DNA from: Terriglobia bacterium
Lineage (GTDB): Bacteria > Acidobacteriota > Terriglobia > JAIQFV01
NCBI GenBank assembly: GCA_028716525.1
Contig: JAQUPQ010000005.1
Span: 62,001-126,000, forward strand
Length of the DNA stretch: 64,000 nt
Direction of reading: 5' to 3'
Both the position numbers and the translations under genes were made by a program. Below, one piece after another: positions 34,124 to 39,298 of this stretch. Numbering within the stretch: the stretch's first letter is position 1; every line of letters begins with the position of its first letter. The notes under the pieces were generated by a model. It saw only the letters and a list, made by a program, of their open reading frames with translations, was not told the origin of the DNA and did not search any database.

Positions 34124-36370
34124 CTATCCGGGCATCTCATAAAGGCGATCGACATAGTGTGTGAAAGGTTGGAAGGCCTCGAGGAGTGCCTGCTGATATT
34201 CCCCGATGTCGTAGCCGCGCCAGGCTTCCCACAATGTCCAAGCGCGGACGCGATCGTCGGGCAGCGCCGAATCCGTGCGGCACAGCAGGTATTGAATATT
34301 TTCACCGGCGCGCAACTGCACGCCGGCCCGGTCCAACTGCCGCGCCACAATGGCGGTGTGGTTATTTTTGGTGTAAGCCTCGGGTTGGCGCGTCAATCGC
34401 CGCGTGATCAGCAACTCTTCCGGATTCATATCCCCTTTCGTGACACCATCCAAGTATCGATTTAACACTTCGCGCGCCTGCTCGAGCTTCACGCAGTAAC
34501 TCTCAAAATCGCGCGCTTCCGCCAGGATGTGGAGCACTTCGTTTTGCATGCGCGCCACCACACGCGGCGTGTCGTGTCGGCGGCACTCCAGCCCGCGGAT
34601 CTTCACGTGGTCCTCGTCCACGACGCAAAAAAAGCGATTGGGAACCGGGATCTCGGCATACTGTTTGGACGGCAGAAACACCACATACCGATAGACCGCT
34701 TCCACGGCCAACGGCAGGTTGGTGATGGATTCAATCTCCACCGCGAGCCGCTCGTAATCCTCCGACGTGGCGCCTTCTTTCTGCACGTAAAGCGAATCGA
34801 CCAGCGCGTGCAGCACGCGATAGCCGCGCTCCTCGGCAGCTTCCTTGGCCACCAACAGTTTCTCGCGGGCGACGGCGTTGATGGCTTCATGAGCTTCAAT
34901 TTTTCCAAAGCGCGCGTTCTTGTAGCCGGTGTAACCGAAACAACACACCAGCAGCCACTTCAAGGCGCTGCGCCGCAGCAGATACGACGGCGCTCGAGCC
35001 GCATTCTCGCGCGCCGCTTGTTTATAGCGCTGCCGTTTGGCGATCAAACGCTCCACCACGCGGCTGGTGATGCCGCGCCGCCGGGTGCAGATGCGGTAAC
35101 CCAATTCCGGAATGCGCGGCGCTTCCGGACAGCAGGCGCAGTTCACCGTCTCCGGCGAAACATTGAACCGCGCCATGATGCTCGGGTACTCACTCACAAA
35201 ATCGAGCTCGCAGACGTTCTCAAAAAAACCCAGGCGTGGCGGAAACACCAGGCCGCCCCGGTCGGCGCTGAGCAACTCATCGGGATGTTTGGGGCTTTCG
35301 GGCTCGGCTTTCTGCTCCGGAATCAACACGCCGTCGTGATAAGCCAGTTCCATCTGCAAATGCGAAATACCGGTGCCGGTGGTGGTGCGGCAGGCGTATT
35401 GCACCGGGAGCTTGGTGAGCCGCGCCAATTCCCAGAGGCCGTCGAGCTCACACTGATGCGTGATGAAAGAATTTTGGGTATCGACATGCAGCCGTCCGAA
35501 GAGCGTGGTGGCGCTTTCTTTAAAAAGAATGCGCCCGTAGCTCATGTAACTGCGGGCCCGGCTCCGCTGAATGGGCAGGGGATCGCGGTTCAAACTCAAT
35601 CGAACGCCGCGTTTTTCGGCCTGCCCCATCAAGGCCGGAAACAACGTGGAGTCGCCCCACTCCGTCAAGATAATGTCGGGATCATGCCGGCGCAGCAATC
35701 GTTCAAAGCCGCACACCACCGGCTCTTCGGAGTCGTCGAGCAGCAGCGTGCGGGAGGCGGAGAAACGCTCGCCCTCCCACCGGCTCACTTCCACCTCCAG
35801 GGCTCCGCGGCGGCCGTGTTGAGGATCCACCCGCGAAAGTCCTTCCAGCCGCAGCGACAGCATCGTCAACGGCGGCAGCTCGAAATCCAGCACCCACTCA
35901 TCGTCGCGGCAGTGCAGCGCCTTGACGCCAAGTGTTTCCCGGCCCGCGCTGCGCGCCTCTTCACCCGCCTCGACCTCCACTTCCACCCGGGCCAGTGGAA
36001 AAACTTTTTTTTGCCAGCAATACAGCGGCGCCAGCATTAAATCGGAATTAAATAGCTGCAGGGTGGAATCAAGCCGGCGCACCAGGCGCGCCAGCCCGAA
36101 AAATTGGAGGGGATGCGGCACGCACACTTCCAGCACCCGGAGCGGCTGATCCTCCCAGAGGTTCCGCTTCTCCGTAAAACTGCACGCCACGGGCGCGCGG
36201 GCTTCCAAAAGCGGCGACAACCGCGAGAGCTGCCGTTCCCGTCCGGCCACGTAGAAAGAAGGCGCGAAGGAGCGGTCCAGCAGGCGGTATCGCCGGCCTT
36301 CAGAGGTGATCAACCACAGCGCCATCCCGTGATGCGTCGGGTAGAGATCGAGGAGCCATCCATGCAGCAT
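34124..36370 (-). CDS. Divergent family-B DNA polymerase
   Basis: About 748 residues. Motif A is ELDFVSEYPSIMARF (about residue 390; the catalytic Asp is kept). Motif B is a KWLLVCCFGYTGYKNARFG variant of Kx3NSxYG (about 473). Motif C is LHALVDSLYV (about 523), where the usual DTD reads LVD, so only the second Asp remains. The exonuclease part has a DFE like ExoI (about 160), but ExoII and ExoIII look eroded. Primer extension is possible, proofreading doubtful. The start is taken at ATG 36370; the frame opens further upstream but overlaps the preceding gene. It is the last gene of a three-gene operon with a RecA-like protein. Confidence 0.85.
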   Translation of the reverse strand: MLHGWLLDLYPTHHGMALWLITSEGRRYRLLDRSFAPSFYVAGRERQLSRLSPLLEARAPVACSFTEKRNLWEDQPLRVLEVCVPHPLQFFGLARLVRRLDSTLQLFNSDLMLAPLYCWQKKVFPLARVEVEVEAGEEARSAGRETLGVKALHCRDDEWVLDFELPPLTMLSLRLEGLSRVDPQHGRRGALEVEVSRWEGERFSASRTLLLDDSEEPVVCGFERLLRRHDPDIILTEWGDSTLFPALMGQAEKRGVRLSLNRDPLPIQRSRARSYMSYGRILFKESATTLFGRLHVDTQNSFITHQCELDGLWELARLTKLPVQYACRTTTGTGISHLQMELAYHDGVLIPEQKAEPESPKHPDELLSADRGGLVFPPRLGFFENVCELDFVSEYPSIMARFNVSPETVNCACCPEAPRIPELGYRICTRRRGITSRVVERLIAKRQRYKQAARENAARAPSYLLRRSALKWLLVCCFGYTGYKNARFGKIEAHEAINAVAREKLLVAKEAAEERGYRVLHALVDSLYVQKEGATSEDYERLAVEIESITNLPLAVEAVYRYVVFLPSKQYAEIPVPNRFFCVVDEDHVKIRGLECRRHDTPRVVARMQNEVLHILAEARDFESYCVKLEQAREVLNRYLDGVTKGDMNPEELLITRRLTRQPEAYTKNNHTAIVARQLDRAGVQLRAGENIQYLLCRTDSALPDDRVRAWTLWEAWRGYDIGEYQQALLEAFQPFTHYVDRLYEMPG

Positions 36371-36623
36371 CAAGGTGAATCCCCAAAAGCGCTTCGATTC
36401 TTCGCAGGCGCATTTCGTGATCGAGCGCCACCGCCACCTGGATGCCGTCCATGGCATGCGCCGGAAATTGATAGGTGCACGCCTGAATGTACAAACGGAC
36501 GCGCTGAAACATCAGCTCGAGCTGTTCCCGTTCTTCGCGGCGAAGGGCGCGGCCGAAGGTGCGCTCCCAGCGTTCCAATTCCTGTTCAATTAAATCGCGA
36601 AACGTGGCAACGGTTCGTCCCAT
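36300..36623 (-). CDS. Small protein of the polymerase operon, unknown
   Basis: A 107-residue protein rich in Arg/Glu/Leu, probably helical (FRDLIEQELERWERTFGR, REEREQLELMFQRVRLYI). Its ATG lies three bases after the RecA-like stop, with GAGGTGA as ribosome site. Its 3' end overlaps the predicted polymerase start by about 70 bases in another frame, so either the polymerase starts later or the genes truly overlap. Not assigned to a family; it may be a polymerase accessory. Confidence 0.7.
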   Translation of the reverse strand: MGRTVATFRDLIEQELERWERTFGRALRREEREQLELMFQRVRLYIQACTYQFPAHAMDGIQVAVALDHEMRLRRIEALLGIHLDAAWMAPRSLPDASRDGAVVDHL

Positions 36624-36626
36624 AAA

Positions 36627-37283
36627 TCACCTCGTCACATGACGTTCGACCGGCCGAAGCGGGCGCGGCAAATCCGGCGCGTCCCCGGGCGCCTGCAGAC
36701 GCCATTGAATGTGGCCCTCGAGGTCGGCCGCACATTTCCGCCGTTCCGCTGCCAGGGCCCGAACTCGAAGAAGAAACGGCCGACGGGCCGGCAGCGGCGA
36801 AAAACTTTCGGCCGAAGAAAACAGCGCCGCCGTCAAAGGCCGCTCTCCCTGCTGAAGCTCGTCGAGATGCTCCAGCGCCTGGTCGAAAGCCGCGCGCGCC
36901 GGCTCGTCGCGCACGTCTTCATCAAAATAAAGCTCCGGCAGAGCGGTAATCATGAGCACCTGCGCCGGAAAGGTTTCCAGAAAACGGGGAACGCGGGCGA
37001 TGAGTTCGGTCAGCTGAAAACAGGTGAAGGCCCGGGCAATTTCGATTTCCCGATTGAGCTGTTCAAAACCAATTCCACGCTGTTCGCCCAAGCGCTTCAT
37101 CAAACGCGGATCGACGGCATTGGCCCCGTCCAGAAACAGAATTTTTTTGCCCTCTTGAATCAGCCCGGGCAGGAAATAATGACTGAGGCGGGCCGTCGTC
37201 CGCTCCCCTTCAAAGAGAATCAGTCCGCGGGCCGGCAGGCTCCACGGCTTACTTTCAGCTTTCGATACCTCGACGCTCGTCAT
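36627..37283 (-). CDS. RecA-like protein lacking a Walker A motif
   Basis: About 218 residues with RecA-core-like order: ARGLILFEGERTTARLSHYFL in the P-loop position, KILFLDGANAVDPRLM as a Walker B-like strand, AQVLMITALPELYFDE, and a C-terminal arginine-rich tail. The P-loop reads GERTTARLSHY instead of GxxxxGK(T/S), so ATP binding is doubtful. GGAGGAG supports the start (ATG 37283, or GTG 37286). It heads a tight operon with the small protein and the divergent polymerase, and is divergent from the SAM-riboswitch unit. Compare ImuA-type proteins, which are RecA-like partners of translesion polymerases. Confidence 0.72.
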   Translation of the reverse strand: MTSVEVSKAESKPWSLPARGLILFEGERTTARLSHYFLPGLIQEGKKILFLDGANAVDPRLMKRLGEQRGIGFEQLNREIEIARAFTCFQLTELIARVPRFLETFPAQVLMITALPELYFDEDVRDEPARAAFDQALEHLDELQQGERPLTAALFSSAESFSPLPARRPFLLRVRALAAERRKCAADLEGHIQWRLQAPGDAPDLPRPLRPVERHVTR

Positions 37284-37424
37284 CACTCCTCCACCGTTTC
37301 AGCAAAAAATCATCATAGGCGAATAAAAAGCGAAAGTCAAGCAAAGCAAAAATGTGTCTCCGGGGGGCGTTTCCTGTTGACATCCGCGATACTGAAGTTG
37401 TAAGGTGACGCTTCTTTTGGCGCG

Positions 37425-37480
37425 ACGTGGTGATTTAAAGCAAATTGCTCCACGTTAAACATGTGCTAAACCGCTCAGGG
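37425..37480 (+). ncRNA. SAM-II-type riboswitch aptamer, first of two
   Basis: Stem P1 ACGTGG (37425-37430) pairs with CCACGT (37450-37455). The loop carries TGATTT...TTGC, and downstream TAAA and GCTAAA (37465-37470) fill the pseudoknot positions. These elements occur in the same order as in the known SAM-II fold (TGATTT, TTGC, TAAA, GCTAAA). A -35-like TTGACA lies at 37377-37382; the best -10 is weak (TTGTAA, 37398-37403), which would start RNA about 15 bases before P1. An intrinsic terminator follows at 37488. SAM-II senses S-adenosylmethionine and normally controls methionine genes. Confidence 0.85.
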
Positions 37481-37487
37481 ATTTTTC

Positions 37488-37525
37488 AAGCCTTGCGCAG
37501 ATTGGCGCAAGGCTTTTCTGTTTTT
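37488..37525 (+). terminator. Intrinsic terminator after the first SAM-II-type aptamer
   Basis: AAGCCTTGCGC (37488-37498) pairs with GCGCAAGGCTT (37505-37515), an 11-bp perfect stem, followed by TTCTGTTTTT. Its place directly after the aptamer suggests transcription attenuation. I do not see an obvious antiterminator. Confidence 0.88.
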
Positions 37526-37545
37526 AGGGCTCTTTGATAACGGCT

Positions 37546-37600
37546 CGGGTGGCGATTTAGGCAACTTGCTCCACCATAAAAACAGCTAAACAGCAGGGAG
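37546..37600 (+). ncRNA. SAM-II-type riboswitch aptamer, second of two
   Basis: GGTGG (37548-37552) pairs with CCACC (37571-37575). The loop has CGATTTAGGCAACTTGCT, and the 3' part ATAAAAACAGCTAAACAGC. It repeats the layout of the first aptamer with compensatory base changes in P1, as expected for a second functional copy rather than a recent duplication. A second terminator follows at 37609, then the threonine-synthase-like gene. Confidence 0.85.
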
Positions 37601-37608
37601 TGTTTCGA

Positions 37609-37637
37609 AACCCCACGCCGTTTAGCGTGGGGTTTTT
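37609..37637 (+). terminator. Intrinsic terminator after the second SAM-II-type aptamer
   Basis: AACCCCACGC (37609-37618) pairs with GCGTGGGGTT (37625-37634) over a six-base loop and runs into TTTTTC. It lies about 70 bases before the ATG of the next gene and would stop transcription in the leader. Confidence 0.9.
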
Positions 37638-37705
37638 CATTTTGGCCATGAATTTCCGATTGGCCGCCCTGTTGCCAGGATTTTCTACAAAAGGAGAATA
37701 ACCAC

Positions 37706-38986
37706 ATGAGTTTTGTAACGGGGCTGAAATGCCGCGAATGCGGGCAGATTTATCCGCTCCAACCGCAGGGCGGATGTGCCGAATGTTTTGCGCCGCTGGA
37801 AGTGATGTACGACTACGAAGCCATCGGGCGGGCGCTGTCGAGAGAGCGCATTGCCGCGCGGGGGCCTTCCCTGTGGCGTTATCGCGAACTGTTGCCGCTC
37901 GAAAGTGAACCCACGGTCGGGCGCAGCAGCGGCTTTACCCCCTTGGTGCCGGCCGAACGATTGGGCGCCGCGTTGGGGTTGAAGAATCTTTATCTCAAGA
38001 ATGACAGCGTCAATGCCCCGACGCTTTCCTTCAAAGATCGCGTCACGGCCGTGGCCATCAACAAGGCGCTCGAATTTCAATTGGAAGCGGTGGGCTGTGC
38101 CTCCACAGGAAATCTGGCGAATGCCGTGGCCGCACAAGCGGCGACGGCGGGACTTGCGGCCTACATTTTGATTCCGGAGGATCTGGAGTGGAGCAAGATC
38201 ACGGCGACGTCCATCTTCGGCGCCCAGGTGGTGGCCGTGCGGGGAAACTACGACGAAGTTAACCGCCTGTGCACTCAAATCGCCGACCGCTTCCCCATCG
38301 GTTTTGTGAACGTCAACCTGCGCCCTTTTTACGGGGAAGGCTCGCGCACCGTCGGCTACGAAATCGCCGAGCAGCTGGGATGGCGCGCCCCCGACGCCGT
38401 GGTCGTTCCGATGGCCGGCGGATCGCTCGTCACGAAGATTTACAAGGGTCTGTGCGAATTCCAGCGACTGGGTCTGTTGGAGAATGAAGTCCACACGCGG
38501 ATGTACGGGGCGCAAGCGCGCGGCTGCAATCCCATCGTCGAAGCCGTCCAACGGAATTCCCGCGATATTCGTCCGGTCAAACCTCACACCATTGCCAAAT
38601 CGCTGGCCATCGGAAATCCGGCCGACGGCTACTATGCCGCGGGAGTGATCGCGGAGAGCGGCGGCTGGGCCGAGGATGTGAGCGACGACGAGATTCGAGC
38701 CGGCATCCGCTTGTTGGCATCCACGGAAGGCATTTTCACGGAGACCGCCGGCGGCGTCACCGTAGCCGTGACTAAAAAACTGGTGGAGCAACAGCGCCTC
38801 CAACCGCAGGACCTGACCGTGCTGGCCATTACCGGAAATGGACTAAAAACATTGGAAGCGGTTGAGCTGCCCCCGCCACCGGTCATCGAGCCGAGTTTGA
38901 GCGAATTCGAGCGCTTAGCGAAAAGCTTTTCGGGGCCAGCAGGAATTCATTCGACTTCGCGTGCTTCGGCGGCTGCCCAGGCGTAG
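37706..38986 (+). CDS. Threonine synthase homologue, candidate O-phosphohomoserine sulfhydrylase
   Basis: A 426-residue fold-type-II PLP enzyme. An N-terminal zinc ribbon (CRECG ... CAECF, about 9-29) is followed by the PLP lysine in LSFKDR (about 109-114) and the phosphate-binding glycine loops. AAAAGGAGAAT precedes the ATG. By homology it is threonine synthase. Two facts point elsewhere: the leader has two SAM-sensing aptamers with terminators, and the next gene encodes a ThiS/MoaD-like carrier. Both fit an enzyme that replaces the phosphate of O-phosphohomoserine with sulfur to give homocysteine, as CysM/CysO does for O-phosphoserine. This reassignment is inference. Confidence 0.88.
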   Translation: MSFVTGLKCRECGQIYPLQPQGGCAECFAPLEVMYDYEAIGRALSRERIAARGPSLWRYRELLPLESEPTVGRSSGFTPLVPAERLGAALGLKNLYLKNDSVNAPTLSFKDRVTAVAINKALEFQLEAVGCASTGNLANAVAAQAATAGLAAYILIPEDLEWSKITATSIFGAQVVAVRGNYDEVNRLCTQIADRFPIGFVNVNLRPFYGEGSRTVGYEIAEQLGWRAPDAVVVPMAGGSLVTKIYKGLCEFQRLGLLENEVHTRMYGAQARGCNPIVEAVQRNSRDIRPVKPHTIAKSLAIGNPADGYYAAGVIAESGGWAEDVSDDEIRAGIRLLASTEGIFTETAGGVTVAVTKKLVEQQRLQPQDLTVLAITGNGLKTLEAVELPPPPVIEPSLSEFERLAKSFSGPAGIHSTSRASAAAQA

Positions 38987-39022
38987 CCCGAGTTTTTAAA
39001 CAACCTGAGAAAGGAAGAACCC

Positions 39023-39298
39023 ATGAGCCATCGAATCGTTTTGCCCACACCGCTGCGGCGTTTTGCCGGAAATGCGGACAGCATCGACGTGGAAGCGGAG
39101 ACCATCGGGGAAATTATCGAGAGAATTGAGACGCTGCATCCGGGTTTTCGCGATCGCATTTGCGAACCCAACGGAGAATTGCGGCGCTTCATCAATATCT
39201 ATCTGAACGGCGAAGATGTTCGTTTTCTCGAAAAACTGGCCACAAAAATCCCCGCCGGCGCGGAGGTGGCCATTATTCCTGCGATTGCGGGAGGATGA
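39023..39298 (+). CDS. ThiS/MoaD-like ubiquitin-fold sulfur carrier
   Basis: A 91-residue beta-grasp protein: LPTPLRRFAG first strand, IDVEAETIGEIIERIETLHPGFRDRI, INIYLNGEDVRFLEKLATKI, then AEVAIIPAIAGG with the C-terminal Gly-Gly needed for adenylation and thiocarboxylation. AAAGGAAGAACCC precedes the ATG. It lies 36 bases after the threonine-synthase homologue in the same SAM-riboswitch-led unit. It most resembles CysO/HcyS-type carriers in size and context. The activating E1-like enzyme and any JAMM protease are not in the window. Confidence 0.92.
   Translation: MSHRIVLPTPLRRFAGNADSIDVEAETIGEIIERIETLHPGFRDRICEPNGELRRFINIYLNGEDVRFLEKLATKIPAGAEVAIIPAIAGG

Follow-up and report, generated by a model that had tools for sequence, protein, structure and literature searches.

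The analysed window, a stretch of 64 kb from an acidobacterial genome (4.2 Mb in 104 contigs, 96.5% complete), harbors a threonine-synthase homologue (metM) followed by a ThiS-type sulfur carrier gene (metO) whose product ends in GG, a gene pair already recognized in the first-pass annotation of this DNA. Two aptamer-like elements, each succeeded by an intrinsic terminator as that annotation had indicated, sit between a divergent upstream gene and metM (Table 1), and the units of aptamer plus terminator span 37425-37526 and 37548-37647. The promoter-like element ahead of them is tentative, since a consensus scan did not call its TTGACA element. The closest named relatives with metM are Acidobacteria (loci L065 and L133). 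Elsewhere on the minus strand, the window carries a family-B DNA polymerase gene (34124-37286, 777 aa) preceded upstream by two genes, one encoding 107 aa and one encoding 219 aa, the latter matching no Pfam family, and three tandem Acido-Lenti-1 RNAs (RF01687; 12444-12642) at 74-base spacing, all above the Rfam cut-off.

Table 1. Features of the metM leader and operon, with positions counted from the first base of the window.
Feature	Position	Strand	Evidence
Weak promoter-like TTGACA-18-TAAGGT (tentative)	37377-37406	+	By eye from sequence
SAM-II-like aptamer 1	37425-37479	+	Rfam SAM_alpha 24.9 bits; relatives-only model 66.2 bits; covariation
Helices of aptamer 1	P1 37425-37430/37450-37455; P2a 37447-37448/37465-37466; P2b 37439-37441/37473-37475	+	
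Intrinsic terminator 1 (stem 37488-37515 plus T tract)	37488-37526	+	Terminator scan
SAM-II-like aptamer 2	37548-37601	+	Rfam SAM_alpha 20.2 bits; relatives-only model 56.4 bits
Helices of aptamer 2	P1 37548-37552/37571-37575; P2a 37568-37569/37585-37586; P2b 37561-37562/37593-37594	+	
Proposed antiterminator: GCUAAAC 37585-37591 with GUUUAGC 37620-37626 (in terminator 2)	37585-37626	+	Sequence; relatives' complementarity
Intrinsic terminator 2 (stem 37607-37636 plus T tract)	37607-37647	+	Terminator scan
metM: threonine-synthase homologue, PLP enzyme, 426 aa, proposed homocysteine synthase	37706-38986	+	PF00291 218.8 bits; TIGR00260 272 bits
metO: ThiS/MoaD-type sulfur carrier, 91 aa, C-terminus IPAIAGG	39023-39298	+	PF02597 50.9 bits

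When a 421-base query was compared with 4227 Rfam families, both elements matched SAM_alpha (SAM-II, RF00521), at 37417-37490 (24.9 bits, E 0.0013) and 37539-37609 (20.2 bits, E 0.025). Both miss the gathering cut-off of 36 bits, for which reason they are filed here as SAM-II-like; that cut-off is a score line drawn by curators and not a structural feature, and the best score among the relatives, that of a sister aptamer, was 34.6 bits. We set aside low-scoring hits to such families as Thr_leader, mir-490 and rnk_leader, taking them for chance matches of hairpins. Ranked over the whole genome by RF00521 score, the window copies came first and third, a copy before asd-lysC was second, and a fourth match (17.4 bits) was dismissed because it falls within coding sequence. 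A covariance model made from ten relatives' aptamers, with all three of the source genome excluded, scored copy 1 at 66.2 bits (E 1.3e-14), copy 2 at 56.4 bits (E 4e-12) and the asd copy at 69.8 bits, and gave no further match in the 137 kb searched. In the P1 loop (GAUUUA..UUGC) and the GCUAAA strand every SAM-II element is present in both window copies, and the core pattern TTGCTCCAC-TAAA-GCTAAAC occurs twice in the 64 kb against 0 expected. Across 11 aptamers, 98.3% of the cells are paired, and three pairs have changed on both sides, where shuffled alignments gave 0.7 such pairs and each slid control 0. One of the three belongs to P1, which is 98.5% paired, and the other two to the P2b pseudoknot helix, which is 96.7% paired; P2a is invariant, and the P2 figures come from few sequences. 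Two SAM-II-type aptamers with P1 stems that differ and still pair had been proposed at these places from the letters alone, and both points were borne out, the stem of copy 2 having exchanged a C-G pair for G-C.

The third SAM-II-like aptamer of the source genome (L012:3431-3560; G000:C48, C48:3425) lies directly before asd and lysC, has its own terminator and is preceded by a consensus-like promoter, TTGACA-TATATT. Among the 299 class genomes searched, no other carried strong copies in excess of one set, whether single or tandem.

The 3′ pseudoknot strand, GCUAAA plus the following base, is complementary to the loop and 3′ arm of the terminator, and that following base covaries with its terminator partner between families (C/G, G/C, U/A): family f6 has a G and the partner CUUUGGC, families f1 and f3 a C and the partner GUUUAGC or GUUUGGC, and one f1 leader joins GCUAAAU with AUUUAGC. 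In the asd leader, GCUAAAGAAC faces GUUCUUGAGC with 9 of 10 positions paired, and minimum-energy folding of the truncated leader chose the antiterminator. For the truncated leader 2 of the window the same procedure settled on a different pairing, and the antiterminator of the window's own leader is hence a prediction; in window leader 1 the partner is imperfect (GATTGGC), and among the leaders compared the second copies in G012 and G040 have no terminator complementary to the GCUAAA strand. Judging from the parts, homology, conservation, covariation and context, the leader would bind SAM and repress: with SAM plentiful, each successive aptamer would hold its GCUAAA strand in the pseudoknot, its own terminator would form and transcription would stop, while with SAM scarce the strand would be free to pair with loop and arm of the terminator, letting the polymerase read through. 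Two such switches in series would be expected to give a steeper response.

Within the class, each of the 30 metM loci that were examined has a SAM riboswitch, SAM-II-like in 11 (the window included) and SAM-I in 19, the class relatives lacking SAM-II having SAM-I in 19 cases out of 19. The SAM-II-like element was found in 45 of 299 class genomes, confined to three families, and scored 69-82 bits in 44 of them; wherever a fetched SAM-II-like leader had metM in reach, leader and gene shared a strand, and in the newly fetched set the gene followed after 78-334 bases. A genome search found no SAM-I in the source genome, in agreement with an earlier report that the SAM-I and SAM-II classes occurred together in no single species (PMC2258182). 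The two classes have been swapped, in a lineage-specific manner, at orthologous metM genes within one class of bacteria. Between families f6 (L050, L052) and f3 (L032, L034) the aptamers differ at only 1-2 core bases despite distinct terminators and MetM proteins of separate clades, so that the leader may be strongly constrained or may have been transferred.

Beyond the class, orthologues of the MetM clade occur in Acidobacteria, Nitrospirota, Nitrospinota, Omnitrophota, Planctomycetota, Aquificota, Chloroflexota and others. The window protein is 54-75% identical to this clade against 34-36% to the genome's own ThrC proteins, from which the clade also separates in the tree with support of 100/99, values that do not serve as a main argument since the branches are long. 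In 80 named loci, a carrier gene was near metM in 72, and a sense-strand SAM-I riboswitch was upstream of it in 31, from many phyla (74-404 bases away in 28 of the 31); no other Rfam family was above threshold before metM in these loci. The actinomycete Nonomuraea has the order SAM-I, metM (51% identical to the window protein), carrier, and the sole match in a plasmid search was one actinomycete chromosome. SAM-I heads a cysK-like - metM operon in Nitrospira (L106:1397-3739) and a ThiF - metM - metO operon in a Binatia genome (L082:1524-3766). Neighbours of metM in other genomes comprise thrB (homoserine kinase), core methionine synthase and ThiF activating enzymes and, in one case, a metY-like gene with metX; apparent fusions in L035-L037 were rejected, the long frames being merely open and a separate ThiF gene lying downstream. 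In the bacterium isolate NAT430, a divergent SAM-II-like leader stands directly before metM (L137:2388-2448; 25.5 bits with model R2, no Rfam call), possibly a separate adoption of SAM-II at this gene.

The gene content of the source genome bears on what metM does. A profile search gave no MetX above 90 bits, the best match being a 90-bit hydrolase (PRK06489), and neither MetA nor HcyBio was found in the 104 contigs; thrB is present, so O-phosphohomoserine should be available. Besides metM there are two complete ThrC homologues and one split across contigs C80 and C48, and one of these genes matches the PRK08197 threonine synthase model best; a count of five was rejected because the C80 and C48 halves are one gene (127 identical overlapping bases), and a candidate on C6 because its match is weak and distant. 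The first-pass annotation had named a missing covariance-model hit, or a sole thrC beside complete metX/metY with threonine as its only product, as speaking against its reading; a model hit was in fact obtained, and the genome has other ThrC homologues and lacks metX and metA. Carrier-activating enzymes are encoded on C46 (ThiF) and, apart from MetM/MetO, in a C17 cluster of a cysM-like gene, a JAMM protease and a ThiS-ThiF-rhodanese fusion. Over 41 class genomes, metX (threshold over 300 bits) occurred in 6 of the 9 without metM and 3 of the 32 with it (Fisher p 0.0012, a value that ignores kinship), an anticorrelation amounting to few independent events since five of the six metX genomes without metM belong to one family; three relatives have neither gene. 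The two nearest family members (G001:C4:109533 and G002:C43:30780) have metM plus a MetX-like match of 347 bits within a 763-aa open frame, possibly a fusion.

We consider it highly likely that metM and metO form a MetM/MetO operon that serves methionine supply and is subject to feedback by SAM. A ThiF/MoeB-type enzyme encoded elsewhere would thiocarboxylate MetO, from which the PLP enzyme MetM would transfer the sulfur to O-phosphohomoserine, yielding homocysteine, a reaction that we infer. This reading is favoured by the family-wide SAM control of metM, through SAM-I or SAM-II-like elements; by the absence of metX, MetA and HcyBio where thrB, other ThrC and activating enzymes are present; by the third aptamer before asd-lysC; by the greater frequency of metX in relatives without metM; and by the thrB, methionine synthase and ThiF neighbours elsewhere. 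Counted against it are the sub-threshold Rfam scores, the three relatives lacking both metM and metX, and the imperfect antiterminator of leader 1 together with the other pairing folded in leader 2.

Two further points against it are the ground for rival explanations. An ordinary or bifunctional threonine synthase, with the adjoining carrier serving another pathway, would fit the score of MetM over the TIGR00260 thrC cut-off and the Microcystis ThrC, 51.6% identical to MetM, whose activities were reported as mainly threonine synthase/deaminase (PMC12172450). We nonetheless find it improbable, given the other ThrC genes of the genome, one of them best matched to PRK08197, the general adjacency of the carrier, and the SAM riboswitches of two unrelated classes that precede metM across phyla. 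Homocysteine might otherwise come from transsulfuration, a PF01053 enzyme using O-phosphohomoserine and cysteine like the plant cystathionine gamma-synthase, with MetM/MetO minor or parallel. Two strong PF01053 proteins are indeed encoded (C3:21078 and C39:33669), but the former, which adjoins cysK, scores best as cystathionine gamma-lyase and the latter as methionine gamma-lyase, in keeping with catabolic or reverse roles; both fall short of the curated cut-offs of the cystathionine-synthase models compared, and the SAM-II-like RNA stands at metM and asd-lysC rather than at their genes, which makes this route less probable again.

The leader itself admits other readings. That the tandem aptamers, which two families retain next to each other in partly distinct subtypes, are non-redundant and sense different ligands or SAM ranges (e.g., SAM and a related adenosyl metabolite), so that two inputs would gate the homocysteine branch of the aspartate pathway, we rank lower still. 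Least probable of all is a structured leader for a ligand other than SAM, such as S-adenosylhomocysteine: the sub-threshold Rfam scores would fit it, but the SAM-II core and P2 pairs are conserved, the sister aptamer comes within reach of the cut-off, and the element takes the place of SAM-I at the same gene in sister lineages.

The MetM/MetO operon proposed here has precedents, and the earlier claim that no described system combines these parts was mistaken. Hasebe et al. (2024; doi 10.1128/aem.01247-24) are reported to have identified MetM as a homocysteine synthase in Streptomyces, with a metO sulfur-carrier gene, and a SAM riboswitch is reported upstream of S. albulus metM (PMC12172450). 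The systems share a ThrC-like PLP enzyme adjoining a sulfur carrier, an upstream SAM riboswitch and O-phosphohomoserine as substrate, proposed in our case; the window differs in being acidobacterial, in having two SAM-II-like aptamers instead of one SAM riboswitch, and in that its activity is predicted. The identity of the window protein with the tested S. albulus enzyme was judged through homology and the citing paper. The enzyme of Hasebe and co-workers is said to use O-phosphohomoserine and a carrier thiocarboxylate. In CysM/CysO and in HcyS of Wolinella, too, the thiocarboxylate of a GG-ended carrier delivers sulfur to a PLP enzyme, although the enzyme and substrate differ from those proposed here. 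As to the leader, 44 tandem SAM-II arrangements have been described, some with a terminator for each aptamer, and classed as pseudo-cooperative (PMC9481103); the window likewise has a pair of aptamers with individual intrinsic terminators ahead of a single operon, but its copies diverge from the Rfam model, lie in Acidobacteria and precede metM. The methionine biosynthesis gene metZ of Sinorhizobium meliloti is similarly preceded by SAM-II with a terminator predicted to be induced by SAM, in a single copy and for another enzyme (PMC9373788). Both halves of the finding are thus of known kinds, since MetM/MetO and tandem SAM-II had been described: sequence and context give good support to the SAM-II-type control and the putative carrier-thiocarboxylate route of the first-pass annotation, whose proposed chemistry is very probably correct, though not new. 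For SAM-II before metM, SAM-II in Acidobacteria or the within-class swap we found no description in the open-licence literature. The newer points are the SAM-I/SAM-II swap at one gene, the sub-threshold SAM-II in Acidobacteria and the covarying antiterminator as a proposed basis for switching.

To our knowledge, the MetM/MetO route to methionine has been experimentally shown only in Streptomyces. The strong regulatory evidence assembled here would extend it across numerous uncultured phyla, in which annotation would label the gene a threonine synthase. The locus also offers a clean case of orthologous genes in one bacterial class carrying either of two unrelated SAM riboswitch classes, and points to a SAM-II variant that the Rfam threshold misses.
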